Below, piece by piece: positions 17,221 to 63,898 of a stretch of DNA of 64,000 nt. Source of the DNA: Clytia hemisphaerica (Eukaryota; Cnidaria; Hydrozoa; Leptothecata; Clytiidae); the NCBI GenBank assembly GCA_902728285.1, contig CACVBU010001154.1, positions 496,001-560,000 on the forward strand, in the 5' to 3' direction. Below the pieces are notes generated by a model. It saw only the letters and a program-made list of their open reading frames with translations. It made no database searches and was not told the origin of the DNA. The translations under genes were made by a program, and so were the position numbers. Position 1 is the stretch's first letter, and the number at the start of each line of letters is the position of its first letter.

Positions 17221-17450
17221 GTGTGGCCCGTGCGTGGACCGCGTGTGGCCCGTGCGTGGACCGCGTGTGGCCCGTGCGTGGACCGCGTGTGGCCCGTGCG
17301 TGGACCGCGTGTGGCTGTGCGTGGACTGCGTGTGGCCCGTGCGTGGACTGCGTGTGGCCCGTGCGTGGACCGCGTGTGGCCCGTGCGTGGACCGTGTGTG
17401 GCCCGTGCGTGGACCGTGCGTGGACCGCGTGTGGCCCGTGCGTGGACCGC
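17221..17450. repeat. 22-bp GC-rich minisatellite, about ten copies
   Basis: The unit is GTGTGGCCCGTGCGTGGACC plus GC. Ten or so copies are seen, one with a one-base deletion and one half unit. Because 22 is not a multiple of three, all frames are open on both strands, giving several overlapping ORFs that are not genes. In copy 1 the corresponding place has only about three shorter GTGTGGCCCG units. Confidence 0.9.
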
Positions 17451-17639
17451 GTGTGGCCCGAACACGGCCCGAATTCTCAGGCCAGCTCGGGCTTTACGCG
17501 AATTCCAATAAAAGTTTTGGCCCGAGAATTCTATCAATTCTTTTGGCCCAAACTTGACCCAAATCATTCGGGCCACGTTCGGGCTACGACTTAAGACGTA
17601 AACTGTTCAACCTATACCTTTGTGCCTGTGTCAGAAGAT

Positions 17640-27802: not shown

Positions 27803-30800
27803 CTAATAGTACTTCATTCCTGTAAAAAGGAAAATAAAAGAATGGATGAGCTTATCAAAGAAAAAAACTCTAGGCAGTACGGGAAACATTGTACGTTTTT
27901 ATGTTTTTGGGGCTACTCTTAGGTGCCAAATAAACGGGCACCCCCGCTTGTTAATTTTTCGAAAATTCTCCAACCCCCCGCTTATTAGCCCCCCCCCCGT
28001 TTATTGATTTTTAAGAATATTTTCAGTTAGCAAGAAGAAGTCACCGTATTTTGCTCCAAAAAGCCTGATTTTAACCTATATTTACCTAATTTTTGGGTTT
28101 TAAGAAGTACAATCTCCAACCACAGATATCTGTAAAGCCCGAAGGGCTAGATTTGCAGCTTTGTTCAAAAAGTGAAGCTCATCTTTGGAAGGATTTCCTA
28201 CCAGAGTCACGTGACTAAAATATGCAATTTCACCGGTTTGAGAGATGTGAAATAGCGTTTGCCACCTAATTTTTTTGATATCGCGCTCCGAAAACAATCA
28301 AAATGCTAGATCCTATCCATCGGCACGAAATTTAAAAAGTCAAATTTTAGCTTCACTTTTTTTTGCTGGAGAAAGCTTAAAGCTGCAAATCTAGCCCTTC
28401 GGGCTTAGATATCTGTGTCTCCAACCCTCTCGGCAATAAGGCAAAAAATTTTCACCCCCCCCCCCCCGTTTATTTGGCACCTAAGAGTATACTTGCAATG
28501 CCAGGGAGTAATTTTTGATGTTCTCTAAATCTTGTTGCTCTAATGCTTAACCATGACATAAATTTAGGTGGGGCACTTTTTAGTTAGAGCTGTAAAAGGG
28601 GTGCAAATCAATTTTAGGGAAAATGATCTTTATTCCAGAATTTTTCGCAGGGTCGTCTAAAATTCGTGAACAACGAAAGATTTCTTCCCTTAAAATATCA
28701 TTCCTTTCCATCCACATGTAAAGCCTAACTTAATATAACAAACTTACTGCATGGTCCGACGTAAGACATTGAGATTGCACCCTTTGATTTGCACGTGGCC
28801 ACGGCCATGGTACACGGGTTGCCGTAAGTACGTCCGTCACTTCCGCAAATTGGCGAAAACTCACGTGTGCATGCTTCAGAGCATTTGGTACCTTAGAAAT
28901 AAAATATTGATAACATCATGATAAAACAGACCTGGAACCGAGGAATAAAACAAATAATTCAGATACATAATCGACATTTCCCAGATTTGTTGAGTTGTAA
29001 AGAGGGTTCAAACAATGTTGATACTTTAACAAAGTATACTCTAACAAAGCCATCATATGCTGATAAAGTCACGTATAAGATAACGAAGCTTTCTAGACAA
29101 ACAATCTTTTTTATCACTATTATAAGAAAAATTCTGAGTTCCCCTAAATCAACATAATTTTCAAGAATAGCGAAATGATGGAAGAACACAGATTTTTCAC
29201 TTACCGCAGTCTTCGATACGTTTTCCACGCATATAGAATTGAGCATTACAGCTTCCACAGTAGTTCGCAACACATTGTGCGCGCGGGTATTTCGGACAAT
29301 AAGCACCAGCGCATGGGTTGCTCACGCATCGCACTTTCGGTTGTCCCCTACTGCATTTTTCTAGAAATGGAATGATAAAATCAAAATTAAGGAAATGTGA
29401 AAAATTGAAATTGAAGATCAAAGAATAAAGAATATCCAAAGAAGCCTTATCCCAAAGTTTGACGAAGGTGCTTATATATCTGATAAGGCTTAAAGAGAAC
29501 ACAAAAACTTTGTATAACAAGTCTGAGTGTAAAATAAATGGATTTTGTGTTTGAATATCAATAAGCACACAATTATGAAAAGAAAGTTCTTACTGCATCT
29601 TCCGGAGTGCGCCTTTCTGATTTTTCCGTTGCTTATACACATGGCTTTACGTAATTCACAATGATTGGCGTACGTCTTGGAGTCTGTTCCGCACACTGGA
29701 CGGTAACGGAAACCGCAACGCTTGTTCACACGGCATCGGTTAGCTAAAAAACGAATATCAGTAAATATTAGTATTGAAATTCTAAATCCACTTAAATATG
29801 TTTAACCCATATCGAAAATCTGATCGAAATATCCGATATCCCATAAAGCAAAGTCTATTTTGTTGAGGGGCTATTACAGATAATGAAAATTTTACTTTCG
29901 TCATCTTATTTACTGCTCTCGTCATGGGCAAAATTTGCCTCGGCCCTGTGGAAATCTTTAATTTCTAGAGTCTAGCTGAAATCCACTTCCGCTAAAACTA
30001 ATAAATAATTTGCATATAACAGCTTTAGTAGAGAACTTACCACACGGACCGGTATGACGTAACACAATTGATTCATCACGGCATGTATCTTGTTGTAAGC
30101 GACATAAGCTGGCGTACGTCTTTCCGTTCGTTCCGCAGACACGATTTCTATCGGACGGACATTTCAACGGACAGGTCGGTTCTTTACATTTTCCGTGATG
30201 TTTGAGTTGAACACGACCTCCACTTCTACAGGTACCAAAGTTCATCATGCACTCATTTCCGTATGTTCGGTCGTCTGTACCGCAATACGGGTCCCACATT
30301 TTGTTACAAATCGGACTGCATTTCACTGAAGCGAAAAAAAAACAAATCATATTAAGTAAGTGACAAAATGATTATTAAGTATACCAAAATCCGAAAGAGA
30401 GTTCGGAATGCTATTTGGAAGAAACACGAAGGATACGCAGATAATTTACACACACAAGATTTAATTATAGAGTGATTGCAATCAAGAAGTTACGAAGAAG
30501 CTCATTTTACATACCGCATTTCCCGAAATGTTTGAATTTAACGACACTTCCGGTAGCGCAGGATTTTTGCTGCAATTTACAGAAACTTTCATAGGTGTTG
30601 CCGTCAGAACCACAGACTTGCTCTTTGTCAGCGGAATCGCAACTGTCCGGACATGCAGGGTTTCCGCATTCACCTTCATAAGCAAGACCGACTTTCCCAC
30701 CAGTTTGACAGGTCTTTTGTTGCATGATGCACTGGTTGTCATAATTCTTGCCATCTGTTCCGCATTGAGGTTCGTAATTAAACGGACAGACCTTGACGCA

Positions 30801-31175
30801 TTTTCCTGGAAGATGAAGAAAATGGTCACGTTATTAAAACGAGGAAAGAAAATAGTAAGAAATTGGCTGGAAATTTAAACGACTTTATTCCAAATTTAGA
30901 TAATGAAATTCGAAGAAATCTTTGAATAACTCAAGAATAGTAAAGGGTCAAAAGGTTCTAGTTCTTCTGCTGCGAAATACGTTTAACACAAAACAATGAA
31001 AATGACAAAACGTCCATACCACACTCCCCATCATGCATTTTAAAGATCTTTGAACTTTTCACACAAGCTTTCATTTCCATTTCACAGTTATTTGAGTGAG
31101 TTTGACCATCACTGCCACAAACTGGTTCATATACAGCAGGACAAATCATCGAACATTGTGGTACACTGGGTCCAG
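27803..31175 (-). CDS. Giant gene exons 54-60: seven Kazal domains, YCGGC module, five-residue C-terminus
   Basis: Exons are 31020-31175, 30515-30805, 30041-30325, 29594-29743, 29205-29360, 28748-28891 and 27803-27819 (residues 2583-2981). Exon 54 is Kazal (P1 Ala, [11 protein letters not shown]). Exons 55 and 56 hold two Kazal domains each, with P1 Phe and Ser (exon 55) and Lys and Ser (exon 56). Exon 57 is Kazal (P1 Phe, [11 protein letters not shown]). Exon 58 is YCGGC ([22 protein letters not shown]). Exon 59 is Kazal (P1 Arg, [11 protein letters not shown]). Exon 60 is only 17 nt, behind a strong polypyrimidine tract and TACAG, and encodes RMKYY and TAG. No clear AATAAA was found close downstream on this strand, so the 3' end is not fixed. 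Confidence 0.8.
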
Positions 31176-34100
31176 CTGTAAAGATGACGAAAGTGAATGA
31201 AGAGTTATATCACACCACGAAGAAGAACCTTACGATAAATATACCTCCAACTTATATTACCTCTTCAGCTTGCACACCTATAGAGTAATTCTATATGAAA
31301 AGAATTGCACTCCTCGCGTTTTCGAATTCATTAAAACCGGCTGTAAATAAAATTTTTGTTGGCGAAATTATTTCAGAATTTCAGAATCGACCACTTTATA
31401 TGTTTAAAGAGATTCAGCCTATTTGAGCAAAAATTACTACTTCAACTTCAAAATTATCATGAGTTTTACCTGCAGCAAAGGGTTTGATCAAAGATCTTGG
31501 TTCTGGACGAATAACTAAAATGGAAAGATGGCGAAATTAATAATTTGATTAAGTCTTAGGCAAATAAAATATACCGATATGTTTATTAATTGTATGTGTT
31601 TTGTAGAAGTAACAAGTCATAAAGAAGAAACAATCATTCCACAAACTTACGGCAGTCGACTTTCTTGTCATTCACAAAGAATTCAGCATTACATCCACCA
31701 CAATAGTTGCCTTGACAACGAGCTTTAGGGAAAGCAGGACACGTGCTCGTGTCACATGGGTTCACTGCGCATGTCACGATTGGAACGTTGCGTGGACATT
31801 CTGAAAATGTGCAAATAAAATTAAGTATGAAAGTTTTCATAGTTAACAAACTTTTCAGGTGAATGAAATGGCAAATTTTTCTTCAAGCCTATATTGCTAT
31901 CATTGGACCTCAAAAACAAGCTTCGGTACTTTATAATGTAGCAGAAAATTATTTCATTTGATCTTACATTAGCCTAATTTTTACGTAAGAGCTGTCCGAA
32001 AAAAAACGTACCAGAACACTGTCCAGTATGCTTGATAGTGAGCGAATTGTCCAAACATTTCTGATAATTGAAGACACATTTATTGGCCATCGTTTGTCTG
32101 TTGGAAGCGCAAACAGGGTCGTATTCGAATGTACAAACTCTCATGCAACGTTGCTCTGAAATGATGCAAATTGTGATTTATTAGAATTGACTAGAACATG
32201 AATTAATGAAAAGTATATGTTCACTGGATATGAGAACAAAGACGGGTGGAATATGTAGTAACTTAACTCACGTTACGACAGTTGTAAGGCACTATTTCAT
32301 TATCCGTTCATTTTCGCGAGTGAACTAACGATGGTTGACCTCAATATTGAAAACAAAGAATGATAGAATCCAGAAAGGTCTTTTCCCAATTAATTCTACT
32401 TTGAATCAAGATTTTGGAAGCAACTGTGAAATCCAAGCTCCAATGCAAATTGCGTACTTCTCTAAGTAAACCCCAATCTATTCTCGGAACGGAGACAAAT
32501 TCTTTCCAGTAGTTTAATCTCAAATCGATAACCTACCTCGACTCAAATTTGATTCTTCGTCATCATAACAGTTGGGTTGTCCTTGGCCAGGAGCTTTTTC
32601 AGTACCTTGTTTCTTAACACCTTTCTTATCTACACACCAACAATAACCGGTGGAGCCATGGCATTGTATTTGTTTGTAAGCGCCGCTTTCATCACATTGT
32701 GGTTTGTATGAGCCAATCAGAAGAGGGCCATTCTCTGCTGATCTCACTTCGTTCTGACATGGTGTCAAATCTAAATAAAAAATGATTGCACATAAAAAAT
32801 GTTTCTTTTTTTCTTATATTCCGGTCGGAAACCGGGACAGTAAGACTCAAATCACGACAAATGCAATAGCAGATACATAGTCAATAAGGCTAGACAAAAA
32901 TGCGAAGGAAAGGCTTCTTATTCGCCTAGATTGATCCTTCACTCTCAATATGAAATTCTATTCATAGTTCCGACTCGAAATTGTTGGAATTTCATAAAAC
33001 GTTTTTTCTAGATTTTCACCTTTATCAACACATGGTCCTTGATTTTGGAGGATGATTTTATTATTTTCACATTGAGCAACTTTGAGCAGACATTCGTTGG
33101 AGTAAGTTTTTCCATCACTTCCACAGAAGGGTTCATAGTTAAATGGACATCCTTGGCTACACCTCTTCTTCTCTTCAAAGAAAAAAAAAATCGAGAATTT
33201 AAAATTTAGTAGTAGAATCAATGAATTGCTGATCGATATAACTTCAAAACACCTGATTTTTATAAAAAAACCTGGTGCACATCATTTGGTTGTATACCGC
33301 TGAAGACAGTGAGATTCTGAGTAAAATTCTGTCTTTTAGTACTACGAAATCAAATTTAGAAGAAAAATATTACGGCAAATTAGCACACAGTAGCGTACTA
33401 GACAGGAGGGCGCAAAATTATATTACGAATAGATAATAATAGTGTCATAAAATATGCTCTCCTACACAAATTTTGCGTCCCTCTTGTCTACGCTACTGGC
33501 ACATATTCTTGAAATATTTGTGAAATATGCAAAATGTTGAAACAGAGAACTTCTTTATAGACTTCACTGAGACGGAAGAATTCTTAACACGAATCTAAAA
33601 CATTAACTTACTGCATTCGACTTGTTTTCCATTGAGGAAGAATTGTGCTTTACATTGCCCACAATAATTGTTCTTGCACACAGCTTGTGGATAATCATCA
33701 CATAAAAGTTGGTCACATGGTACGAAGGTACATCCCACTTGTGGAGTACCTCTTGGACATTGCACTTCTTTCAAAGAGTCTGTGGTAATAAAAAAACAGT
33801 TCTTAGTTATCGAGTTGCTCTTTTTCTAAGTGTTAATGATGAGATTTGCTCTGATACAACAAGAGATCATCTCAGAGATGCTTGATTCTGGTTGGTTGAT
33901 TTTGATTTCATAAGGTTGCTTTTATGCTTTTTGTCATAAAGTGTTTTTTAGTGTGTTTTAGTGTGTCTTAATAACTCGAATATCTCCAAATAAAATGTGT
34001 CGAATGTCTCGAACAAGTCGTCCTGCCCCTCCATTTAACAAGCCCTTATAAAACGTTTCATTAACTCGAAGAAGTTTGTGTTCTATGTTCGAGTTATGGA

Positions 34101-37100
34101 GACTGCACTGTAATCAAGAGGTCTGCTATTCACACCCATTTTTTCAATGAGTTTTCTTTTACTTACTTCCAGAGTTTTGTTGTTCAGGTTTCTTATTGAG
34201 TTGATATCCAACTAATTGAGCTTCAACATCGATCACTTCGCCATCATTTGGTCCTCCGAAAGTTGGGAACGTCTCCGTATGGTAATCTCCAGGGCGTATC
34301 CAATTATCGGCGTATTTACACCACCCGATGTTTAACACCGCACTGATGACATATTGAACACCCGGTGTACCATCGAATGGCATACGGTAGGGGATGATAC
34401 CGGGTTTAGCCGCTTTGACGCCTCGTTGTAAGAAAGATTCCACAATGACCGGATCACAAGATATTTCATCGCACTGGCGGTCTTCTTGGATACGGACGCT
34501 CAAACAGGAGTCTTTGAGATCGGTAGGTGCACCAGATGGCAATAGAAGGTTTCCTTTGACAAATGCAAGTTCTAATAGAAAGAATTGATAATATTAATGT
34601 TAATAGTGTTTTTGGATTAAGCTACAAATTGTATAATACAGGTCAATGGGAAATATTTGATAGATATTCGATCAGATTTGGATCGAGGCTTAGAGTAAAG
34701 AATGCTTGAAAACGCATCTGAATCAATGAAGTCAGTTAGCACAAGATTTTCCAAAACTACCTAATTAGGACGAATTATTATTGGAAGATTCATTTTCCCG
34801 GTTGCTAATTAGACTGAGCTAATTCCAAAACCATTTGATTGTAAAGGATATTCTTACGTTTTTTCTCACACAATTTTGTGGTGCATCCAATGTTTCCGAA
34901 CTCGTTTTTATTAGGAACTGAACAGAAGCTAAAGGAAGATAATAAGCAGGAGGTTATTTTTGGGAAATAGTGGGGTCGTATAGCATAATTTACGGGGAAA
35001 CAATAAGATCTAGCTGAAACTTTCTCTAGACCTTCTCTATAGGATGGTTATGCCTCAGGAAAAATTCCCCTAAAATCCCACTGGTGGAACATCCCTTTTT
35101 TGGGACATTTCTATTTTCCCCAGGCAAAATCCTAAAGGCGAAATTTTTTGAAAATTTCAAACTTATTTTCAGAGAATATCATGTATACCATTCGAAAGCT
35201 CTCGAAAAACTATATAGAAGTGCCTGGGGAAAATAGAAATGTCCCAAAAAAGGGATGTTCCACCAGTGGGATTTTAGTGGAACTTTTCCTGAGGTATAAG
35301 CATCCTATAGAGAAAGTCTGGAGAAAGTTTCAGCTAGATCTTATTTTTTTCCTACAAACAGCCTGTATTTTTGTAACACGACCACACTAAAATCGAAAGT
35401 CAAAAATACTCAATGCTTTGAAATTGAAAGTCAAAAGAGTGTAACGTGTAAGGATCGATTTAACGGAATATTATATTTCATACGGTACAAGGCGTTCTAA
35501 AGTAACTTTAGAACGCCATGATACGGTATAACACACTCTACACAAAACATTGTGCAACCTATACAGCCTCCTTTATTCACAGCTGTCGTCGGTAATGATA
35601 ATGAAGAAAGTATTGTTTATTTTACGAGCGTTGACTTACCACGTGTTGCATTGTTCTTTATCAAGGAAAGATTCTCCATGCTGCTTCATCATCCCTTCGG
35701 AATAACATACACCTGAAAATCAAAGTGTTACAAAGGTATTGAATATATGGGAGCATTAAAGTTATCTTCAATTAGACGCGATCCAGAAACAGGATGAAAA
35801 TACTAGATAGAAAGAGTCGATATTTTACGTTAATAGCCCAGTGACTTTGATACAGTTTTTGATTGTTTTCACTGGGCCCACGGCCATCCGACTCCGCTAT
35901 CTATGAATCGCGAACCCCTGGTTTGTAACGATGACGCCTTTGACCAATTACATGTTTTATTTTTTATAAGCATTGCACCTATAAGCATATGGAGGCTCAG
36001 ATATGGGGAAAAATTAAGCATATGGCAAGCATTACTTGAGCCTACGAAGAATGTTTTTTTCCTGATTTTGGCTTTTTTGGCTGGAATTTTACGGATTTTC
36101 AGTATTTCCCTAAATTTATGCTTTAGATTTAAGCATCCCTCAAGCATTTTTCAGCCTTATTTAAGCTTTCGACCTAAGCATCTCTGAGCCTGTTTTCGGA
36201 TTTTTGTATGCTTATAAAAAAAAAAACATGTAGTCACCGCTCCTTAACACCTTAACACTATTGCAGTAATGAAGATTGTTCATAAGTCTTCGTTACGCGT
36301 TGATTTGGCAGAAAAACCTTTCCATCTTTACCTTTTGGGCATCCTTTTCTTGTACAGCCCCACAGTCCATTTGACATACACCGGCTGAAGTAAACAAATA
36401 AAAAATAGTTTATATATTGGACGGAGGATCGTCGATACAAAAATACCATTAGATGCTAGAAATAGTTAAAAATAATTAATACTTTAGATACGCCGTTATC
36501 AATGACCTCAACTGGATCCAATGTTTTGAGGGTACTTAATCAAACATGAATTTTGTGTTTTATGTAATAAACAGATGAAATGAAACTTACCATCTATTAC
36601 ATTGTTGGTAAGCGCTTTCACCCGCCTTGTAATAAACTCCATTCAAAGTGCACCCACATTCAACCAATGAGTTGGATCTCGTGTTAGCAACCTCGTCCCC
36701 AGTCTTTGTATTGACACACCAGCATTCACCAGTGGATCGATCGCATTGTCGGTTCTTGAAGTCCCCTTGTAAGTCGCATTGCGGCGTGAAGGAGCCAGGG
36801 GTTGCAGCACGTGTTGTACATGGACCTGATGTGATGAAAAGAAGTATAATGTAAATTGTACTTTGTTGCAACCAACTTTAATGGCTAAATTAGAATTCAG
36901 ATTAATTGGAGGAAAAAACCTCCGTCAGTTTGATTGTACAGGCGTAAATCTGGATTGAATAGGAGACCGTCTGTTCAGTGAGGCCTTTCATTTTCTTGAG
37001 TCAAATAATGAAATTCAAGCTCCTAATAAATAAAACAAAGGGTTGAGAATTATGATTGTGAAAGTTGTTGTCGAAATTTCACCTCACCTTGTCTTGGAGG

Positions 37101-55100: not shown

Positions 55101-58100
55101 TTGTCTGGATATTCTATAATGGTCGGAAACACTTACCAGGCGGGCAAGCCATCAAGGTGCAACCAAATAGGCCGTTTGATCCACAAGTGCTAGAAGTAAG
55201 AAGATAAAGAATCACAATACCCACAAGATTAGGAATAAAGTCAAGCATTTGTCTCTCTTCCTAAAGATAATCTCCTTTTTATATGAATCATGCGAAATTT
55301 CATTGACTTTCTAGGGAAAACATACCAACTGTTGCAATCATCCCAAGCTTGTTGTCCTGGTTTGTAATATTTTCCTTTCAATGTACAGCCTATAAAAGTT
55401 TAAAAGATATTAGTAAGTAAAAACTTCAAGCTTAAAATTCTCGTGGTTTACTATTTTTGCGGAGAAGTGCTTTCTTTAAAGATTTCGGAAGAAGTCACAA
55501 GCGTGTTTCAACAGAACATTTCTCTCTAAACTGTTTATAATGACATTGATCTTGAATGTTACGAGACACGATAATGCAAAATGCTTTTCTCTTACCGCAT
55601 TCTTCCAATCCTCTAGCCTTAGTTCCATCAATTTGTTGTCCAGTCTTTGTATCGACGCACCAACAATAGCCTGTGGACGGATGACATTGTTTGTTGACGT
55701 AATCACCTTGGATATCACATTGTGGTTTGTATTGACCGAGAAGTGGTTTACTGTTGCTCGCTTCCAAGGAGGAAAGTTTGTCTGCACATGTTGGAACTAT
55801 AAAATCGAAGGGAGAGAAGATTTTGGATTCGGGAATTGAAATCTCACAACATTTTTAAGATTTTACCAATCTTTACGCTGATGTACCGATAGAATTTGAC
55901 GATCCTGCCCTGTTTTGATTTCACCCTACCCGGATAGAAAAGGAAAAGTAAAATTTTTCTTAGTTTGGATGTGCGTGCGCATTTGAAAACAAACCAGTTT
56001 AAAATCTAAAGTTAGGGAATGATCGCAATTAAGAGGAAATTATTTTACAAAGTTACCATGGAACGAAAGGATGAGGAAAGAAAGTTTTGGGAGGGGGAAA
56101 CTTACGAAAGAGAACAAAAGAGTGAACAAACGAAAGGCGAATGATTACTAAAAACCAACCTTTGACATCACCAGGTGAAGCGTATTGTTTGTATTCGTTT
56201 AATTGGAAATCTTTTTGATATTGTAGGGTATTGCCAACAAGAATGACCGGTACTTCAACATCTGTGTAATAGTCACCCCCTTTCAGCCAATCACCATTCT
56301 TATCATTCAAGTCAGTACACCAACCCAAATTCAAGGTAGCATCCAACAATACAGAATGCATATCTCCACCGAACCTCAATTCATATTTAAAGGTACCATC
56401 TTCTGATAACTTGACATTCTTATATTGTTTTCTATCTAGAAGGTTTTCTGGACAGTCAGCATCTTCACCTTCGCGGACATCGCAGTAAAGGGGTTTAGTT
56501 GCTTTGACGGTCAGACAACTTCCAACAAGGATTGATTGAAGGGTAGGCGGGAACATCAAATTTCCTGAGACAGTGAAAACTGGGGAAGGGACGACCGACT
56601 TCTCGATGTCATCTTGACAAGTGAAATAATTCTTGATGGTCAAACTTCGATCTTTACATTTTGCATTTTCAAATTCGCATTCATTTGGGTAAGTGCGTCC
56701 ATCACTTCCACAAACTGGTTTGTATTCACGTCTGCATGGTTTCACACACGACAAACAGTCGACTTTTTTACCAGCTGGTTGTCTTGTTCCACTGATTTCC
56801 CGTCCGGAATCTTCTTCAACACACCAACAATGTGCGGTAGATGGATGACATTGTAATTTCTCGAACTTTCCACTTGAACTGCACTGTGGGACATATTCTC
56901 CGAGTAAACCACGTGCATTACTGCTTTGCTTTTGACATGCAGTGACCTCTGAAATAAAAACATACGAAATATTTTTATAATAACTCTCCTGTTATTAAGT
57001 TCACTCGTTAGGGTATTGGAAGATCTTTCGATCGAAATTAGGTCGCAGAAATATAATTTGCGATAAATTTTCCTTGCTTGAAAAACAAAAATGCAAAAAA
57101 ATCTTCTTACTTGGGCAAGGACCATTTGCAACCCAGGTGATAGAATTATCTTGACACTGTGCAACTTCTAAATTACATTGGTTTGCATATGTCTTTCCGT
57201 TACTTCCACAACGGGGATCCCACAAATAAAAGCAGGCTTGGTTGCAAGCTTCTTGCTCTAAGAGGTGAAAAAAAATCAACTTTCAGAATGTAACTTAGTG
57301 AGCAACATTGCTTCGCAAGAGAGGTGAAACCAGTGAGTGATTTATGCTTTAGATTCGTAGAGTCTTATTTTTAGTCCAAAACCAAATCCATCCGAACTAA
57401 ATGGATATGCATGTTTGAAGAAACATAAAATAAGGCTTGGAATGGAGACTGGTGATAAGGTTACTTCTGTTGCGTCCATTGAACGTTCAGAACATCCATA
57501 AGACGTTAGATGAATGTTAATCCAACCAAATTACACTTACTACACTCGTACTCTTCACCATCAAGGTACCATTTGTTAGTACATCCTCCACATGGGTCTT
57601 GCATACAAACAGCTTTCTTGTTGCTCAAACACGCTTTCTTCGCGCATGGTTTGAACGTACAGAAAGCACGTGGTTGGCCAACACCACATTCTATAAATGA
57701 ATAAGTTGGAATTTTTCAAAATTTTGAAAGACTAGGCTATATGCTAAAAACAAGGAAGACAGAATTTCTTTTACAGAAAGACAACAAAGCCACAGATATC
57801 TGTAAAGCCCGAAGGGCTAGATAGGCAGCTTTAAGCTTTCTCCAGCAAAAAAAAATGAAGCAAAAATTTGGCTTTTTAAATTTCGTGCCGAAGGATAGGA
57901 TCTAGCATTTTAATTGTTTTCGGAACGTGAGATCAAAAAAAGTAGGCGGCAAACGCTATTTCGCAGCTCTCAAACCAGTGAAGTTGCTTGTTGTCACGTG
58001 ATTTCTTTGCTAGGAAATCCTACCAAAATTTGCTTCATTTTTCGATAAAGGCCGCGGATCTAGCCATTCGGGCTTTACAGATCTGTAAACGAAACAGCCT

Positions 58101-61100
58101 GTTTCTATATTTCTGTCTATCTTGAATGCAGGTTGCGGATTTTCTGCGTTGAAATTCTGGCGTCACAAGTATCCACAAATTGGTCATCAGCTTGGACTTA
58201 TTTTGTCTTGTATATTCTTGAAAGTAGGTCCAAATAAATAAGATTAAACAAACATAAACTAACCCTTGCATTTTCCTTTGTAAGCCAATTGTAAATCACC
58301 GTAGTTACATTTGATAGCAGATTTCAAAACACACAAGTTGGAGTAAGTTTTCCCGTCACTTCCACAGTGAGGTTCATACTCTCTTGTGCAAATGCCTGGA
58401 CAGTCATCGTCTTGCACTGTAAGTGTGAAAAAAGAAAATCAGTTGAAAAGAAATTCAATCATTTAATCATGATTTTCTTTACATCTCTAAAGTAATTTGA
58501 ATTTTTGTGTTAGAAACTTGAATTAGAATTGTTCGAAGTCAGTCGATTATTTCTTTAGTTTATTCAGATTTTTTTTCATTCGATGTGTTCAGATGTTATA
58601 CTGTACCTTATAGAAATCTTTTGTCTATCTGAGAGTCTTACTAAAAACACACACACTATCAAAATAATTCGGTAAAACTGTACAGTACCTGGTTTCATGG
58701 GTTGAATTTGACTTTGCTGGCACTTTCCATCGGACACCATTTGCAATGCATTATTCTCACATTGAGCATTTTCAAGTTCGCACTTGTTTCCGTAAGTCTT
58801 CTTATCGCTTCCACAAACGGGTTTGAAAATACGCGCGCAAGCTTTCAAGCATGGTGTTCCACATTCGAAGTTTCGTCCACGTGCATTTTTACGTGAACCG
58901 TATAGTTCATTGCCAGTGTGTGGGTCGACACACCAACAATAACCGGTGGAGAAATGGCATTGTTTTGTAGAGTATGAACCATCAACTTTGCATTGTGGGA
59001 TATATTTACCAGGGATTTGTTTCTCGCTGGCTTTGATTTCACATTTAGTAGGCGCTGCAGAATGCAGAATGAACATGTGTTATTACAGTAAGCACTTTGG
59101 AAAATTTAACAATTAGTCAACCCTGGCTAGATGATCCCTCTATGAAAGAATTGTGGCGTCTTTTTTACCAGAAGAAGGGGTAAATGAAAATATGGGCAAT
59201 ATGGTACTTAGAAAGGAAATCTCATGTTAATTTTGACCAGATCATTTCGAGTTTTTTTCGGGTGTGCTTGGTTTAAAATTCAAAAGAGGTTTCTTCTACC
59301 ATTTAATATCAGCCAGGAAGGCTCAAATAGCTTTAAAATGATAAGACATGCGCATTGTCGACTGATTAAATTCATAATGATCCCTTATTGAATGACAAAG
59401 TCGAAGAAAAACTGAAGAGACGAAAGGTCAACTTACGTCTACACATGCCATCAGATTTCTTGTTGATTGAAGCATCTTTACATTGAGCGATTTGTAAAAG
59501 ACATTCGTTATCGTATGTCTGACCATCACTACCACAAAGAGGTTCGTACGAAAATGGACATGCTTTCTCACAGGAATCTCCTGCAGAACCTGAAAATGAG
59601 ATTTTCAGAAATTCTAGTAATCAGTTTGTTTGTCTGGCTTGATAAAAAAGCAAGCCAATAGATAATTAAAGATACGATAAAAATCTAGAATTAAGTCTTA
59701 AATTTCTCTAGTTAGAATCCTAGAGCTCTACAAAACTGTAGGTAGTACAAGGAGCACATTACTATAAGGAGCACAAATCCTTTAATGGGTACGAGCAGCC
59801 TAAAAATCATCGAGCTAAAAATAACGCCCGCTTTTCGGTTTTAGTTTACAATAAAACTGAAACCTCAAGCTTAAAGGTTATTTCCGGAGGGAATAGAATT
59901 AAGTTGTATCGGTGTAGGGCTTTAAAACGACTAACGTGCCCGGTAATACTGACTGCTATAGAGGTAATCTAAACTAATCTTTCAGTGAAAGAAGCAAAGG
60001 TATATGAATTTGTGCCCCCTGCTCAAACAGAATTCTCATAAAAGATGAATAAGTGAAAAACTTCAAAATAACAGATGCGTGATGACTTTGCAAAAGATTA
60101 ACAAGTGACATTTTTATTTACCAATGATCAGAAGTAACATGTAAATATCAATCCTTAAGGTCATCTGCAGACTCGACTTCCTTTTGAACGAAATTGTATC
60201 ATGATTATAAGATTTCGGTACCAGCTCGACTTAAAGATTCTTTTACAAAAAGAATACCTTAGGAAATTTAATGTAGATAGGGCCTTAATCTTATAGAGCC
60301 GAGTAGAATTTTGTGACACTAAAGACAGAGGTATTTTTTGAAGAAGGAAATGATTTCAAGGAGGGTATCCCTACCAAAACAAACGACATGGTAACGTGAA
60401 GTGGTCATGGAATGGGAAAGTTTATTTTGATTTTACAGGAGAATTATTATTATACACCTTTTCGACCGTAGCCGTCAATTGCCGCGCGGGAATTTTTTTG
60501 TCCGCTTTATTCCACTAAAACTGTCCTAGTCCTTTTTTCGCACCTATAGACAATAGAAAAATGTGTCAAAAAAGGATTGGATCGAGTTTAGTGGGACAAA
60601 AGTGGCACGCGTCTGACCGCGCGACTACGATCGAAAAGGTGTATTATTACAGTACAGTGGAGATTATCGAGTCTTTCAATCAAAAATTTGCTGATTCAAG
60701 GCTGACAGATTGACCCTGTCACACATTGGAATTTCTCGACATCATAAAATTATTACACATGAAGTTCATCGTCAGTAGTGCCGATGACTAACAATCAGAT
60801 TGACTCAGTAATAAACCAAGACAGTAGATTTGTTTATTTTGAAAATAAAAAAATTCCATTGATAATCAGAGAAGTGTAAAATTTCATAGCATAAGCAATC
60901 GAGATATATAATGAAAATACACAGTGACATACTCTGTCTGTAGCAACAAACAGTACAAATCACTACTGTACTGTATAAGTTTGAAAACAGACTAAACATC
61001 TCTGTTCAGAGAAAATGAGAGAATCCTATGGAATAGCCCTATAAAAGCTATAATCGAAGATCTGGGGCTAGTCATTGACAATTATCTCGCTGTTTTTAGA

Positions 61101-63898
61101 AAAACGAAAAATTGTACGGGATATACTTTTCGTTAGCTGACTATAAGGATAGATGGTAAAAAGCTAGCGAAAATCGCTTGTTGCCCACTTTAATCATGAT
61201 CTGTGTCGGTTAAAATAACTACAACTTAGACAATAAAAAGACAATAAAGCCTCTCAACAATGAAGTAATTGCTGAAAGAAAGCCACAAAGCCATGACAAC
61301 TTGAGAAGTGAGTTTTGTGATTTTCAGGAAGTAGAATTTCCGAAATGTTTGAGATGTACAAATAACAGTGAAGTTGTGGAGTTTATGCGGAAAGAGAACT
61401 GAGATATCTGGGGTCTCGAAAAAAAAGGAAGTCCGAAGTGATTTAGTTTACCTGCTGTAACTTGAAAAGTAAAAGCTTCGACATGGTACCACATGGCAGT
61501 TTAAAATTTTCATTCGTTTTACTATTTTTGAATAGAAGCCATTTTTGATTCCGAATTATTTCGTATCAATATTTGAGCTCGACATATATTTCATAAACTG
61601 TTACCGGGAAAACTACATCCAATTTTTATAGAATAACACTGTTTTGGTGACCCATAGAGAATTTCCCATAAGTTGGACCAGATGGGAATTGAAATATCCC
61701 TTGTCATGTTTAGGATTACAAATTACATTGTTCAAAGTCCCAAAACCTGTGTAAGAATGGTCAAATTTTACTTTAAAGTGTTAGATAAAATTTACGATCA
61801 CTTTATTTTTGAGCTTCCCTTGTCGGTCTGTGAGACGGGGTTGTTGTAAAATACATAGCAGAGCTAAGAAAAAGCGCGTGTGAAAACAATAATCCGTTCA
61901 AACCCTCACAAGATAAACCTCAGAAGTTGCATAAGGGTCAACAAGTTGAGCTTATCTAAACACCAGGAGTAGATTATAAAACCCGCAACAGATTTAGAAT
62001 ACAAATATTCCCTGCTGATCGAAGATGCTTGGAAAGATTATTTGCTAAGCATGGACTGTGAAATGTTTCTTTTAGTAGCATCTACCGTTTTTTCTGCAAA
62101 TTCAGACTCCCACCCTGTGTTATTTCAAGAAAAAAATTTTCTACCGTTGAAATTATTTTAGCAGCAAAATCAAAGGAAAGGAAGGAAAATGTTTGATTTC
62201 GTAACTCAAGCCCAATTATCACGATTGCAATGCAAAACAGGCTAATTCAGGATGTTAGAATAAAAATAAGTTTAGTAAGATTAAAAATAGAGTAAAATAT
62301 CCTTTTGTTGCGTATATCCATTTGACATCACAATAATTTTATAAATATTTGATAACTCAACGATATCATCATGGCCAATCCCGTATTTATATACACGTAT
62401 TTTTACTGTGCATTGACCTAAATTTGATAGCGAACTACTAAACTAATGACTGAAGTGAGATTCGAACTCAGGACTTACGCATTACTAGTTACTTTGTACC
62501 AGAGTGTACCTCACGGAGAACGTGTTTCAGTACGGCAATGCATTTTGAAGTTTTTATTGATATCGGGTCTACAATTGTCCTACCAACAGAGCTATCCAGT
62601 CAATTCCGGAAGCTTAATCGGGAACCAATGTGATATGAAGGATGACAGTGAAAGCCTTACCCGAGGATGAAGATTTGTACTCTTGAATGGGAACTCCAAT
62701 TTTGAATTCTGCACCCTCTGGAGGAGTGGTAAAATCCACTTGAATCTCTGTATGATAATCTCCCCCGCGGATCCATTCATCAGCGCCTTCAGTTTTGCAC
62801 CAACCCAAATTCAAAACAGCTCCGATGATGTATTTAACCTCCGTTTGGGGGTTAGAAAGTCGCATTTTGTAGGAGATTTTACCCTCCACAATAACTGGAT
62901 CTTTGATGCGGAAAGAGGCTAGTTTAGGGATTTCACAGCCTTCGCAGAGAATCTCTTCTTGAATGTCCATACGTAAGCATGATCCGGAAGGGATGCTTTG
63001 AAGGCTACCCGGTACCAAAATATCACCGGATACTGTTAAGTCGCCTGTAGAAAAGAAAATAAATAGACCCTTAGACGCTAGAAAAATCTATAGATAACGC
63101 CAATGGCTCTTTTTAGGTCTTTCTGTGAGGGAAATTTTGACTTATACATGATTAACAGTCTTTATTTTCCAAGAGATGTAAATAGAGGCTTATAGAATGG
63201 GGCAAATATCAGATCGTTTAAATCTATCATCGACGCGTGTTTTGATTTATGATGATAATATTGTAACAATTTGCTAATACTGAAATTGGACTCTCACTTG
63301 AAATCGCTTTAAAGGGCAGATAATCACTAAAAACTATTTTGATACTTGGCGGTTGAGAAATCTTCTCTTCCTTAAAATCAGACTTGTTATGAGATAGGGT
63401 GAGGCTCGGAAAAAGTTCAACATAAATGGTCAAAGTCTTTCTACGAAAATTTCACTACCTTATTTATTTGGCTCCTTGGAGTTTCATTGTTTATGAAATT
63501 TTCACAAAAGAGAGAATACTGCATTGGAATCAAAAGATGCAAGAAGATAGAAGTTACGTCAAACTTCGCCACTCCGATGGCCTCGGGGAAGAACGCTCCA
63601 TAAATCGTCCATACAGAATAGACGCTTTTGCGTAATAAAAGCCGTAAATGTCTGGTACGGCTAGTTATAACCCTCCTTGTCGCGACCGGTAAACAGCTAA
63701 AAAGGTTAAATAGCGCTGACAAAATAAAATTTTTTACAGAAACAAAATAGAAATATTCCGACGAGATTTTCAATTCGCGGATTCAGAATTGATGAAATAA
63801 GAATTCTTACATCTATCGCCGTCACATTTCAACTGTCCATTCGCCAGACACACACTGTAAACGAAGAGAAATACCAACAAAAAATTATTCCAAATCAT
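27803..63898 (-). CDS. Giant secreted multi-inhibitor protein: Kazal, thyroglobulin-1, pacifastin and other Cys modules; 60 exons
   Basis: Starting at the ATG at 63898-63896 and running down to the TAG at 27805-27803, 60 exons can be joined with GT-AG introns and no frame break; they total 8,946 nt and encode 2,981 aa. The first 21 residues ([21 protein letters not shown]) form a signal peptide; no transmembrane segment is seen, so the product is probably extracellular. In order it holds five copies of an unassigned GSC/GWC module, 18 Kazal domains, six thyroglobulin type-1 domains with CWCV cores, 16 pacifastin-like domains and four YCGGC modules. Kazal, thyroglobulin-1 and pacifastin families are known inhibitors of serine and cysteine proteases; inhibition here is inferred. 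Exon coordinates are in the segment entries. The main alternative is two adjacent genes split at the mannosidase locus; exon phases across that gap match and no second signal peptide is seen there, which favours one gene. Confidence 0.82.
27916..28487. mobile_element. TA-flanked MITE CTCTTAGGTGCC with nested insertion, in the last intron of the giant gene
   Basis: The ends CTCTTAGGTGCCAAATAAAC and GTTTATTTGGCACCTAAGAG are perfect inverses flanked by TA. C runs lie near both ends. The CCCGAAGGGCTAG MITE at 28121-28417 sits inside. The element lies between exons 59 and 60 of the giant gene. Confidence 0.75.
28121..28417. mobile_element. CCCGAAGGGCTAG MITE (copy 3), nested
   Basis: CACAGATATCTGTAAAGCCC, then GAAGGGCTAGATTTGCAGCT, is mirrored by AGCTGCAAATCTAGCCCTTC and GGGCTTAGATATCTGTG. 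Inside are a CACGTGACT motif and AAAGTGAAGCT stretches shared with copy 4. Confidence 0.75.
31470..33779 (-). CDS. Giant gene exons 48-53: YCGGC, Kazal, thyroglobulin-1, Kazal, YCGGC, linker
   Basis: Exons are 33612-33779, 33020-33172, 32537-32770, 32012-32155, 31651-31800 and 31470-31514 (residues 2285-2582). Exon 48 is a YCGGC-type module ([30 protein letters not shown]). Exon 49 is Kazal ([14 protein letters not shown]1 Phe). Exon 50 is thyroglobulin-1 ([16 protein letters not shown]). Exon 51 is a Kazal domain with [14 protein letters not shown]1 Phe, in which the common GSDG is ASNR. Exon 52 is YCGGC ([24 protein letters not shown]). Exon 53 is a 15-codon Pro- and Arg-containing linker without Cys. 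Exon 49 starts at the AG that follows the poly-T tract. Confidence 0.8.
33382..33502. mobile_element. Short palindromic MITE, TAGCG family (second copy)
   Basis: AGTAGCGTACTAGACAGGAG followed by GGCGCAAAATT is mirrored by AATTTTGCGTCCCTCTTGTC and TACGCTACTGG. The centre ATAATAGTGTCATAAAAT resembles that of the copy at 11262. It lies in the intron between exons 48 and 49. Confidence 0.6.
34167..35712 (-). CDS. Giant gene exons 45-47: type II pacifastin and fifth GSC/GWC module
   Basis: Exons are 35640-35712, 34858-34928 and 34167-34571. Exons 45-46 form a diverged type II pacifastin domain ([20 protein letters not shown] split codon, [21 protein letters not shown]). Exon 47 is the fifth GSC/GWC module, here without a Kazal partner: [45 protein letters not shown], then a polar tail rich in Gln and Asn. 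The first GS is changed to DS. A TA-flanked 418-bp MITE sits in the intron between exons 45 and 46. Residues up to 2284. Confidence 0.8.
34970..35387. mobile_element. TA-flanked MITE with very long inverted ends
   Basis: The ends GTGGGGTCGT and ACGACCACAC are flanked by TA. Inverse similarity continues for more than 100 bases, for example AGATCTAGCTGAAACTTTCT and its partner, and the inner pair GGGACATTTCTATTTTCCCC with GGGGAAAATAGAAATGTCCC. The TA duplication suggests a Tc1/mariner-type source. It lies in the intron between exons 45 and 46 of the giant gene. Confidence 0.75.
35480..35532. repeat. Short perfect hairpin
   Basis: GGCGTTCTAAAGT and ACTTTAGAACGCC lie close together, with outer arms ATACGGTA and its repeated form. 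About 50 bases in the same intron as the larger MITE. Confidence 0.5.
36332..37648 (-). CDS. Giant gene exons 42-44: Kazal plus GSC/GWC module, thyroglobulin-1, pacifastin
   Basis: Exon 42 (37088-37648) encodes a Kazal domain ([15 protein letters not shown]1 Arg) and the fourth GSC/GWC module ([33 protein letters not shown]; the usual GGD is replaced by DSD). Its acceptor lies at 37649-37650 with no start codon or signal peptide upstream, so it must be spliced to an earlier exon. Exon 43 (36591-36825) fuses a thyroglobulin type-1 domain ([17 protein letters not shown]) with the first half of a type I pacifastin domain, and exon 44 (36332-36384) gives the second half. For exon 44 the donor AAAAG/GTAAAG was chosen; reading on would hit a stop at about 36258. 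Residues 1819-2095. Confidence 0.78.
37989..37994 (+). promoter_or_regulatory. Possible TATA box of the alpha-mannosidase gene
   Basis: The sequence TATATA lies about 36-41 bases before the mannosidase ATG, within the intron of the giant gene on the other strand. If it is used, the 5' UTR would be very short. This is position and composition only. Confidence 0.25.
38030..42563 (+). CDS. MAN2B1: Lysosomal alpha-mannosidase (GH38), six exons, complete, nested in an intron of the giant gene
   Basis: Exons 38030-38417, 38577-38773, 39295-39636, 39820-40194, 40666-41903 and 42140-42563 join in frame to 987 aa, close to the roughly 1,000 aa of the family. Residues 1-22 are a signal peptide. The zinc-site motif PHTHNDVGW puts His41 and Asp43 in place, IDPFGH places the catalytic nucleophile at Asp165, and QHHDAVTGT near 405-411 supplies another zinc ligand. 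[18 protein letters not shown] and [14 protein letters not shown] motifs (here [15 protein letters not shown]) mark the beta-rich C-terminal half, and the end [11 protein letters not shown] is typical. It trims alpha-linked mannose from N-glycans in the lysosome. The Golgi class II enzymes are less likely because the C-terminal landmarks and the signal peptide match the lysosomal group. Confidence 0.95.
42627..42632 (+). promoter_or_regulatory. Polyadenylation signal of alpha-mannosidase
   Basis: AATAAA lies 64 bases after the stop codon, in an AT-rich stretch and about 300 bases before exon 41 of the giant gene on the other strand. The mannosidase transcript therefore fits completely inside that intron. 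Confidence 0.55.
42930..44387 (-). CDS. Giant gene exons 40-41: Kazal plus GSC/GWC module, thyroglobulin-1
   Basis: Exon 40 (43818-44387) fuses a Kazal domain ([18 protein letters not shown]1 Arg) with the third GSC/GWC module ([33 protein letters not shown]). Exon 41 (42930-43154) is a thyroglobulin type-1 domain ([17 protein letters not shown]) ending VNC. It ends in phase 1, as exon 42 requires on the far side of the mannosidase gene. Residues 1554-1818. This is the last exon before the 5.3-kb intron 41 that houses the mannosidase gene. Confidence 0.83.
44523..45893 (-). CDS. Giant gene exons 36-39: pacifastin pair
   Basis: Exons are 45830-45893, 45208-45260, 44810-44876 and 44523-44620 (residues 1460-1553). 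Type I reads [19 protein letters not shown] and [18 protein letters not shown]; type II reads [20 protein letters not shown] and [21 protein letters not shown], then a Pro-rich linker. The type II half closely matches exons 21-22. Intron 36 contains a complete TA-flanked MITE at 45583-45718. Confidence 0.84.
45583..45718. mobile_element. TA-flanked mariner-type MITE, CCGGGTGTCCC ends
   Basis: CCGGGTGTCCCAGAAAAAAG and TCTCCCTCTTTGAAG are mirrored by CTTCAAAGAGGGGGACTTTT and TTACGGGACACCCGG, with TA at both outer borders. It lies in intron 36 of the giant gene. A possible related end (GGGACACCCTGTTAC) is at about 27068. Confidence 0.75.
46167..46322 (-). CDS. Giant gene exon 35: Kazal domain
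   Basis: A phase-1 exon encodes [17 protein letters not shown] through [11 protein letters not shown] (residues 1408-1459), with predicted P1 Arg. The chosen donor is GAC G/GTACTA; it keeps phase 1 and joins correctly to exon 36. The exon is followed by another pacifastin pair, repeating the order seen at exons 18-22. Confidence 0.83.
46885..47215. repeat. Two-copy tandem repeat of about 150 bp with GCCGGAAA cores
   Basis: The phrases TTTCCGGCATTTTC, GGCCGGAA, TTTTTCTCAAAAATCGG or TTTTTTTCGAAAATCGG, CATCTTTGTGC and AGGAAAAACTAATGA occur in the same order twice. The array lies in intron 34 and is followed by a GAAC microsatellite. Confidence 0.6.
47218..47252. repeat. (GAAC)n microsatellite
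   Basis: About seven GAAC/GGAC units in a row (AACGAACGGACGAACGAACG and on), directly after the GCCGGAAA repeat. Confidence 0.85.
47347..48622 (-). CDS. Giant gene exons 31-34: diverged pacifastin pair
   Basis: Exons are 48559-48622, 48027-48079, 47619-47685 and 47347-47423 (residues 1321-1407). The type I domain reads [19 protein letters not shown] and [19 protein letters not shown]; the type II domain reads [20 protein letters not shown] and [21 protein letters not shown]. The Cys spacing and the split Cys codon are kept, but the sequence is clearly more diverged than the three preceding units, so this pair is older. Confidence 0.82.
48829..52588 (-). CDS. Giant gene exons 19-30: three tandem copies of a type I plus type II pacifastin unit
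   Basis: Exons are 52516-52588, 52230-52282, 51955-52021, 51692-51780, 51279-51351, 51109-51161, 50856-50922, 50592-50680, 49529-49601, 49363-49415, 49037-49103 and 48829-48917. Every unit is four exons of 73, 53, 67 and 89 nt, encoding 94 residues. Type I reads [14 protein letters not shown]...ECNTC with [17 protein letters not shown]; type II reads [20 protein letters not shown] with [20 protein letters not shown]. Introns 22 and 26 and introns 20 and 24 are also closely similar between units, which shows recent tandem duplication. Intron 26 carries a 636-bp piggyBac-like insertion. Residues 1039-1320. Confidence 0.85.
48829..52588. repeat. Recent tandem duplication of about 1.1 kb units, exons and introns
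   Basis: Introns as well as exons are repeated: 50700-50855 closely matches 51800-51954, and 49602-49934 matches 51352-51674, including the hairpin TCAAACGTTCGA or GCAAACGTTCGA and the CTTCGAATAACAGGAGAGTC phrase. Intron DNA drifts quickly, so the duplication must be recent or maintained by conversion. Confidence 0.8.
49935..50570. mobile_element. piggyBac-like non-autonomous element with CTAA target duplication
   Basis: The ends CCCTTTGAGTGCC and GGCACTTAAAGGG are inverted with one mismatch, and CTAA flanks both sides (49931-49934 and 50571-50574). Elements with CCCTTT ends and TTAA-like 4-base targets are typical of the piggyBac group. The interior has TTCGGCGCCGCC, a GGGGGGTAGGTTAGGGAATT tandem pair and no transposase. 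The empty site is preserved at 51671-51674. Confidence 0.8.
52741..52893 (-). CDS. Giant gene exon 18: Kazal domain
   Basis: A single phase-1 exon encodes [17 protein letters not shown] and the rest of a Kazal domain ending [10 protein letters not shown] (residues 988-1038). The predicted P1 residue is Arg. It is nearly identical to the Kazal parts of exons 35, 40 and 42, and of exon 8, so these five are recent duplicates or have been homogenised. It separates two pacifastin blocks. Confidence 0.88.
53095..55389 (-). CDS. Giant gene exons 10-17: four pacifastin-like domains
   Basis: Exons are 55326-55389, 55137-55189, 54678-54747, 54452-54528, 54078-54141, 53653-53705, 53473-53539 and 53095-53189. 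Each pair makes one domain with the pattern C-x9 to 13-C-N-x-C-x-C-xn-C-T-x3-C that defines pacifastin light-chain repeats. Type I (exons 10-11, 14-15) begins GC and has a short second half ([20 protein letters not shown]). Type II (12-13, 16-17) begins GVCYHEGK and has a longer second half with a DKN-type insert and a Pro-rich tail. In every pair the intron splits the third Cys codon as TG/C or TG/T (phase 2). Residues 807-987. Pacifastin domains are known serine protease inhibitors; activity here is inferred. Confidence 0.82.
55596..56948 (-). CDS. Giant gene exons 8-9: thyroglobulin-1, Kazal, GSC/GWC module, thyroglobulin-1
   Basis: Exon 8 (56172-56948, 259 codons) is the longest exon and fuses a thyroglobulin type-1 domain (YVPQC, HCWCVEE), a Kazal domain ([18 protein letters not shown]1 Arg) and the second GSC/GWC module ([27 protein letters not shown]). 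The donor could be at 56172 (CCT G/GTGATG) or at 56160 (AAA G/GTTGGT); both keep phase 1, and the first aligns with the donor after the homologous module in exon 40. Exon 9 (55596-55796) is another thyroglobulin domain ([17 protein letters not shown]). Together they cover residues 481-806. The fused exon suggests that introns were lost here relative to exons 40-43. Confidence 0.83.
57111..57690 (-). CDS. Giant gene exons 6-7: YCGGC-type module and Kazal domain
   Basis: Exon 6 (57541-57690) encodes a Cys-rich module with [12 protein letters not shown], then a CGGC centre ([14 protein letters not shown]) and a closing Cys. Three better conserved relatives occur in exons 48, 52 and 58; here the usual Tyr before CGGC is replaced by Pro. 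Exon 7 (57111-57257) is a Kazal domain with [17 protein letters not shown]; the predicted P1 is Tyr. Both exons are phase 1 on each side and cover residues 382-480. The intron before exon 6 contains a MITE at about 57791-58088. Confidence 0.8.
57791..58088. mobile_element. CCCGAAGGGCTAG MITE (copy 4)
   Basis: CACAGATATCTGTAAAGCCC and GAAGGGCTAGAT at the left are mirrored by GATCTAGCCATTCGGGCTTT and ACAGATCTGT at the right. The interior agrees with copy 3 at 28121 in inverted orientation, including the CACGTGA stretch. It lies in intron 5 of the giant gene. Confidence 0.7.
58264..59589 (-). CDS. Giant gene exons 3-5: Kazal, thyroglobulin-1 plus Kazal, Kazal
   Basis: Exon 3 (59437-59589) is a Kazal domain with [17 protein letters not shown], so its predicted P1 residue is Phe. 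Exon 4 (58689-59054) joins a thyroglobulin type-1 domain (YIPQC, then [12 protein letters not shown]) and a Kazal domain ([14 protein letters not shown]1 Arg) without an intron between them. Exon 5 (58264-58416) is a Kazal domain with [18 protein letters not shown]1 Arg; its donor is a weaker GTTAGT. All three exons are phase 1 on both sides and cover residues 158-381. Intron 2 before exon 3 is 3.1 kb and holds at least one MITE. Confidence 0.85.
60453..60643. mobile_element. TA-flanked MITE ACACCTTTTCGACCGTAG
   Basis: TACACCTTTTCGACCGTAG is mirrored by CTACGATCGAAAAGGTGTA, and an inner pair (CACTAAAACTGTCCTAGTCC with its imperfect inverse) is also present. It lies in the 3.1-kb intron 2 of the giant gene; the rest of that intron shows nothing recognisable apart from AT-rich DNA. 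Confidence 0.65.
62440..62575 (-). mobile_element. Candidate tRNA-like SINE head
   Basis: Read on the minus strand, GTACACTCTGGTACAAAGTA is followed by GAGTTCGAATCTCAC, a good B-box (GGTTCGAATCC-like) match, with a weak A-box-like TGGTACAAAGT. The phrase ACCAGAGTGTA-CTCACG on the plus strand is shared with 3010-3033. No intact tRNA cloverleaf is seen. Confidence 0.4.
62661..63898 (-). CDS. Giant gene exons 1-2: signal peptide and first GSC/GWC module
   Basis: Exon 1 is 63811-63898 and exon 2 is 62661-63044. Exon 1 encodes the signal peptide and a short Cys-containing stretch, and ends in phase 1. Exon 2 (residues 30-157) is a single module: [11 protein letters not shown], then [16 protein letters not shown], a Tyr-containing strand, AVLNLGWC and [12 protein letters not shown]. 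Four other copies of this module occur downstream, always after a Kazal domain or a pacifastin pair; only here does it follow the signal peptide directly. It is probably a beta-sandwich fold held by disulphides. The first ATG in frame is chosen because it alone is followed by a hydrophobic core. Confidence 0.75.

Follow-up and report, generated by a model that had tools for sequence, protein, structure and literature searches.

The window analyzed here is a stretch of 64,000 nucleotides from the hydrozoan Clytia hemisphaerica (positions 496,001 to 560,000 of contig CACVBU010001154.1 in GCA_902728285.1, a 417-Mb assembly of 951 contigs). Its minus strand carries a gene model that runs from an ATG at position 63898 to a stop codon at position 27803 and comprises 59 exons with a total of 8,913 nt (divisible by three), encoding 2,970 amino acids. 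The encoded product contains 49 modules, including 18 Kazal, six thyroglobulin-1, 16 pacifastin, four YCGGC, and five MOD modules. The largest intron of this inhibitor gene (42930-37648) houses, on the opposite (plus) strand, an apparently complete gene for a GH38 lysosomal-type alpha-mannosidase (37976..42563), the Pfam domains of which (Glyco_hydro_38N, Alpha-mann_mid, Glyco_hydro_38C, Laman-like, and Glyco_hydro38C2) are detected in successive open frames. We estimate a probability of roughly 60% that the minus-strand exons form one animal gene whose predicted product is a secreted, multi-headed array of protease inhibitors of ~2,970 residues on an extracellular scaffold.

The gene model was obtained with a dynamic-programming program that chains exons and was trained on the gene's own modules; the output was then edited by hand. 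All 58 introns have GT-AG borders, and the reading frame is free of internal stops. Before editing, the raw model comprised 61 exons with a total of 8,877 nt. Two of its exons were merged via an open in-frame gap of 81 nt, because the read-through supplies the last of the six cysteines of a Kazal module, and an exon of 45 nt with no module was removed. A retrained run of the same program led to 60 exons with a total of 8,823 nt. An earlier note on this DNA had counted 60 exons and 8,946 nt; since the model variants differ in exon number and length, these figures are right within model uncertainty and are not exact, whereas the GT-AG borders, the signal-peptide ATG, the stop codon, and the divisibility by three were all reproduced independently. 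The G+C content is 0.431 in exons versus 0.346 in introns. With the first and last exons set apart, the exons have phases 1-1 (25 exons), 1-2 (16 exons), and 2-1 (16 exons). The start at position 63898 stands, because the 6 kb past the window edge contain no MOD or YCGGC profile match and hold instead same-strand frames that resemble EGF and the integrin beta tail, from ~3.9 kb upstream of the inhibitor start (the tail match is just under its curated cut-off).

Under the same settings, the exon-chain score of the real path was 874.9 versus -17.7 for the opposite strand. Another stretch of the same strand yielded no path, as did five out of six dinucleotide shuffles, the remaining one scoring -25.6. 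At the codon level, five near-identical Kazal copies (in exons 8, 18, 35, 40, and 42) have a proportion of synonymous differences (pS) of 0.276 and of nonsynonymous differences (pN) of 0.028 in frame, compared with pS/pN values of 0.015/0.085 and 0.096/0.065 when they are read in the two wrong frames. These copies are thus under strong purifying selection (pN/pS ~0.1). The respective values for the duplicated pacifastin units are 0.164 (pS) and 0.065 (pN). Because the chance controls yield no comparable path and in-frame pS greatly exceeds pN in the Kazal copies, the exons are coding and constrained, and a chance threading of open frames is ruled out.

We also considered whether the repeats might result from the assembly process. 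For the four-exon pacifastin repeats this is unlikely, because in one pair the introns (257 of 436 sites identical) have diverged further than the exons (254 of 282); the respective numbers for another, closer pair are 414 of 475 and 264 of 282. A genome search for a further complete copy or haplotig of exon 8 returned a single full copy. Four of the seven other matches are Kazal copies of the same gene, and the remaining three are weak and located elsewhere. Separately, a Kazal-like frame akin to the repeated Kazal copies was observed at positions 4780-5031 (reverse complement) of L098 on contig C27 of G000.

The module inventory is identical to that in the earlier note, in which the MOD modules had been left unassigned. 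We scanned the joined translation in pieces against Pfam, with an E limit of 1 in one scan and 0.001 in another. Profile matches were obtained for all 18 Kazal modules (PF00050/PF07648), 17 of which were also recognized by a regular expression for the Cys1-Cys2-Cys3 loop and the 18th (exon 56) by eye, and for all six thyroglobulin-1 modules (PF00086), each with the CWCV core. Pacifastin modules (PF05375) were matched in 15 stretches out of 16, and the six-cysteine pattern C-N-x-C-x-C ... C-T-P1-P1'-x-C fits all 16; the module of exons 45-46 has the cysteine pattern only and falls below the Pfam limit. The alternative assignment of these modules to VWC was rejected, as Pacifastin_I outscores VWC in every scan that lists both. 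The MOD and YCGGC modules were located by their own profiles, and none of the four YCGGC modules has a Pfam match. Comparison of both modules with the sequences of solved structures returned nothing useful, and Rfam gave no matches. A search for the pacifastin family in the genome of the window also gave no match; it carries no weight, since the control genomes likewise gave none and the exons are split. The YCGGC module, which has eight cysteines, is also repeated in a pacifastin protein of Amphiura (P0032). Of the 294 cysteines that follow the signal peptide, two are in exon 1 and all others belong to complete modules (18x6 Kazal, 6x6 thyroglobulin-1, 16x6 pacifastin, 4x8 YCGGC, and 5x4 MOD).

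All of the following exons lie on the minus strand. Exon 1 (63811..63898) encodes the start codon and the signal peptide, a hydrophobic stretch with a peak 9-residue hydropathy of 2.99, and exon 2 (62661..63044) encodes the first MOD module (model residues 31-157), a pilotin-like beta domain with a predicted local distance difference test (pLDDT) value of 85.1 in AlphaFold2. They are followed by a Kazal module with P1 Phe (exon 3, 59437..59589), a thyroglobulin-1 and Kazal pair with P1 Arg (exon 4, 58689..59054), a Kazal module with P1 Arg (exon 5, 58264..58416), the first YCGGC module (exon 6, 57541..57690), and a Kazal module with P1 Tyr (exon 7, 57111..57257). Exon 8 (56160..56948) is an open frame of 789 nt that encodes thyroglobulin-1, Kazal (P1 Arg), and the second MOD without interruption, and exon 9 (55596..55796) encodes a thyroglobulin-1 module. 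Four pacifastins with two exons apiece (exons 10-17, 53095..55389; four Pfam stretches) are separated by a Kazal module with P1 Arg (exon 18, 52741..52893) from eight more, which include the duplicated four-exon units (exons 19-34, 47347..52588; 86 and 89% identity by self-BLAST). Next come a Kazal module with P1 Arg (exon 35, 46167..46322), two pacifastins (exons 36-39, 44523..45893), and a Kazal module (P1 Arg) joined to the third MOD (exon 40, 43818..44387; AlphaFold2 pLDDT 79.8).

The thyroglobulin-1 module of exon 41 (42930..43154) is the last before the mannosidase gene. Beyond it, exon 42 (37088..37648) encodes Kazal (P1 Arg) and the fourth MOD, exons 43-46 (34858..36825) encode thyroglobulin-1 and two pacifastins, exon 47 (34167..34571) the fifth MOD, and exon 48 (33612..33779) the second YCGGC module. 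The remaining modules are Kazal with P1 Phe (exon 49, 33020..33172), thyroglobulin-1 (exon 50, 32537..32770), Kazal with P1 Phe (exon 51, 32012..32155), the third YCGGC (exon 52, 31651..31800), six Kazals with P1 Ala, Phe, Ser, Lys, Ser, and Phe (exons 53-56, 29594..31175; the last P1 assigned by eye), the fourth YCGGC (exon 57, 29205..29360), and a Kazal with P1 Arg (exon 58, 28748..28891).

The P1 residue of a Kazal domain is the second residue after Cys2. By this rule the 18 Kazal modules have P1 Arg (8), Phe (5), Ser (2), and Tyr, Ala, and Lys (1 each). In the 16 pacifastin modules, for which we followed the definition in PMC13388995 (this and the other papers cited by PMC number are used in excerpt), P1 is Leu (9), Ile (2), or Lys, Arg, Ala, Glu, and Thr (1 each). 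Since P1 residues are mixed in both families, a broad range of serine proteases is suggested: the Kazal and pacifastin modules would expose standard-mechanism reactive loops that could capture trypsin-, chymotrypsin-, and elastase-like enzymes. In addition, the six thyroglobulin-1 modules may bind papain-like cysteine proteases, while the five MOD and four YCGGC modules might serve as spacers or binding modules.

The protein is probably secreted and not membrane-bound, and its chain probably stays whole instead of being cut into single inhibitors, because its signal peptide is not followed by any further strongly hydrophobic segment (no 19-residue window exceeds a hydropathy of 1.6 beyond residue 40 of the model) and a furin-type motif (R-x-[KR]-R) occurs once, within a YCGGC module. 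There is a single N-x-S/T motif. As to linker cleavage of the kind seen in processed arthropod precursors, one of the five [KR]R sites (residue 2347) falls in a linker, where it separates a YCGGC from a Kazal module, and the linkers between pacifastins contain none of the five; the other dibasic sites are unplaced. As to the site of action, Kazal-1, -2, -4, and -5 of Hydra are expressed in gland cells (PMC4685579), and proteins with Kazal and thyroglobulin domains are increased in adult sea-anemone mesoglea (PMC12549020); by analogy with both, a role in gut lumen or mucus and a role in the matrix are each possible.

Several observations weigh against a single, intact inhibitor array or mark weak points of the gene model. 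First, the mannosidase gene nested in the largest intron makes the continuity of the transcript the main doubt. Second, if exon 41 were read through, the frame would end at a stop at position 42906, followed by AATAAA/ATTAAA hexamers at 42842 and 42802, and a shorter product ending past exon 41 is possible for this reason. Third, the proposed last exon with the stop codon (exon 59, 27803..27819) has only 17 nt and is a weak, model-based call; without it, the frame that continues past exon 58 would end at 28727. Fourth, the reactive loops with P1 Ser in two Kazals and with Glu and Thr in pacifastins look poor. Fifth, many Kazal and thyroglobulin-1 modules of matrix proteins are non-inhibitory. 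Finally, dibasic sites number 31 in all, and with the [KR]R site in the linker at residue 2347, processing may still occur.

The first two of these points would also be expected if the locus contained two inhibitor-type genes, A from 63898 to ~42.9 kb and B from ~37.6 to 27.8 kb, separated by the mannosidase gene in the interval 37976-42563 and with the stop and both poly(A)-type hexamers terminating gene A. We consider this quite improbable. The donor of exon 41 is the best of the 58 in the model and is equalled by none of 1,938 other GT dinucleotides, and the acceptor of exon 42 (rank 36 of 58) is also good, being equalled by 11 and better than 1,739 of 1,750 other AG dinucleotides. Furthermore, the same thyroglobulin-1/Kazal/MOD block is encoded undivided by exon 8, and its alignment with exons 41 and 42 is free of gaps at their junction (identity at 108 of 248 aligned positions). 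Gene B would need a first exon that encodes a signal peptide and ends in a phase-1 donor, and none was found between 37.6 and 43.0 kb; this is mild evidence only, because four other 5.4-kb stretches yielded 1, 0, 2, and 1 such candidates. Because of the good splice sites, the gap-free alignment, and the missing first exon of gene B, a single gene is favored, and it probably spans the mannosidase interval. The long secreted mosaic proposed in the earlier note is thus supported, although the nested gene, which went unmentioned there, raises doubt about its continuity.

According to another explanation, the product is a structural protein of matrix or mucus, with inhibitor-type modules acting mainly as spacers and adhesion units and with inhibition minor or absent. 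Multi-domain pacifastins of the 'Ancestral' class are tied to adhesion and matrix modules (PMC13388995), and all 16 modules here have the loop length of that class; agrins, which are Kazal-rich matrix proteins, account for 39 of the 50 matches in the search with residues 1-1200. However, canonical P1 residues are frequent (Arg in 8 and Phe in 5 of the 18 Kazals, Leu in 9 of the 16 pacifastins), and the near-identical Kazal copies hold P1 Arg in five cases out of five. We regard such a mainly structural role as unlikely. Of the broad-range inhibitor or matrix scaffold suggested earlier, the secreted mosaic of inhibitor modules is supported, and inhibition is a prediction from its sequence.

No protein with the same architecture was found in searches limited to proteins of 660-2100 amino acids (query residues 1-1200; 50 matches among 3,742 candidates) and of 1121-3566 amino acids (14 matches among 6,392 candidates). 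The absence of any described protein with this module order, as stated before, therefore holds within these length limits, and a full-length orthologue could have been missed, because only ~2-3 of 100 search words would match the inhibitor protein. A search for single-module homologues gave 49 candidates, none of which was scored. Literature searches on pacifastin with Kazal and thyroglobulin, on pacifastin with sponge, and on Kazal with thyroglobulin type and Cnidaria, which lie outside most subscription papers, revealed no description of such a mosaic among the matches listed, including the excerpts of PMC13388995, PMC12549020, and PMC6262176. As far as searched, the complete architecture appears to be new, while its kind is already known.

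The secreted proteins agrin, testican/SMOC, WFIKKN, and LEKTI are likewise mosaics that contain Kazal domains or combine several inhibitor families, but they have other partner domains and fewer modules than the protein described here; LEKTI is processed by furin. The Seison nebaliae protein SNEBB_001448 (1,819 amino acids) is similar in having 20-22 Kazal and 4 pacifastin stretches, but it has no thyroglobulin-1 match in Pfam, a VWC match just under the cut-off, and is matched by neither the MOD nor the YCGGC profile. In Amphiura filiformis, P0009 combines Reeler, LDLa, thyroglobulin-1, and Kazal domains with one pacifastin match under its cut-off, and P0032 combines pacifastin with five clear YCGGC modules; both differ by their other partners (LDLa in the former; DM13, DOMON, and EGF in the latter) and have no MOD match. 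The hydrozoan proteins with SEA, thyroglobulin-1, and four MOD modules (Hydractinia LOC130655955, Hydra LOC100201986, and a Clytia protein) share the MOD domain with our model and have a thyroglobulin-1 module directly in front of it, but they contain SEA domains and no Kazal or pacifastin match in Pfam.

The earlier note described pacifastins as known best from arthropods and as usually encoded in short precursors; this view has been superseded by a 2026 paper, which reports these domains beyond arthropods (PMC13388995). Its 'Ancestral' class has an N-terminal extension of 13-20 residues, often occurs in multi-domain proteins, has a co-occurrence network that includes Kazal and thyroglobulin domains, and shows a lower processing potential outside arthropods. 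All 16 pacifastins of our gene have a Cys1-Cys2 spacing of 16-18 residues, and we infer that this long first loop corresponds to the 'Ancestral' extension. In contrast to the 49 modules and 16 pacifastins found here, the excerpt of PMC13388995 names no protein with such an architecture, with MOD, or with YCGGC.

The MOD module, unassigned in the earlier note, has no Pfam match but proved to be a recurrent domain with four invariant cysteines and a pilotin-like predicted fold, seen so far in the genome of the window and in other hydrozoans, where it occurs in named proteins. In AlphaFold2 models, MOD is placed in the fold of AspS (5wec), with 9-15% identity to 5wec and 2yjl in VIA-align alignments. 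For profile comparison, we built a YbaY profile of 15 sequences (the E. coli protein, 5 of 80 loci, and 9 of 28 plasmid matches). Weak colinear similarity of MOD to the YbaY/AspS profile was detected by hhalign, with scores of 23.2 (104 columns, probability 7%) and 25.7 (91 columns, probability 13%), and the score of 23.2 exceeds those of all shuffles and decoys. It is tentatively conceivable, although we hold it doubtful, that MOD derives by true descent from the YbaY/AspS lipoprotein domain (PF09619) of bacteria. After its entry into an animal lineage, this domain would have acquired up to two disulfides as well as phase-1 intron borders and would have been carried by exon shuffling into inhibitor proteins that are secreted. 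In both long bacterial YbaY proteins that we scanned, the domain is fused to NlpE and META or to the lysozyme inhibitor MliC.

Alternatively, MOD could be an unrelated small beta-sandwich with a convergent likeness to YbaY/AspS; to this we assign about even odds, and it concerns MOD alone and is compatible with the other explanations given above. Besides the low hhalign probabilities, it agrees with the Foldseek search of the PDB (result for one of the two MOD models), where the best E-value is 1.6e-3, no match reaches E <=0.001, and 2yjl is absent among the 50 matches listed. None of the five modules matches any Pfam model at E <=10, PF09619 included (HMMER filters drop most weak matches), while E. 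coli YbaY matches PF09619 at 8.5e-40. Finally, the four helices described for AspS/EpsS (PMC6532946, PMC3542185) are nearly missing in the MOD models, one of the two having one short helix. MOD also differs from the bacterial lipoproteins by its invariant cysteines and its place in a secreted animal protein. A literature search on YbaY with metazoa or eukaryote gave no mention of YbaY among the matches listed, the sole 'pilotin' paper listed for pilotin with Hydra or Cnidaria deals, in its excerpt, with a different, helical fold, and no literature was found on Hydra LOC100201986.

Elsewhere in the window, a probable presenilin gene start (20274-20627, plus strand; Pfam Presenilin E-value 4.1e-6, under the cut-off) points toward the 3' end of the inhibitor gene. 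A minisatellite at 17192-17460 consists of 12.3 copies of 22-bp units with 93% matches and is GC-rich compared with the window (36.5% GC).

The locus provides a clear test case for splicing across an opposite-strand gene, owing to the nested mannosidase. The nearest predicted fold of MOD, that of a bacterial secretin pilotin, raises the question of transfer versus deep common origin; if its descent is true, a bacterial envelope module, in some cases already fused to MliC, would now belong to an animal array of protease inhibitors. If the inhibitor gene encodes one protein, it would carry three inhibitor families on one chain, two directed against serine proteases and one able to bind cysteine proteases, and would thus represent an unusually broad natural inhibitor array. 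Such a protein would agree with a recently proposed origin of pacifastins, in which they first served as modules within large extracellular proteins.
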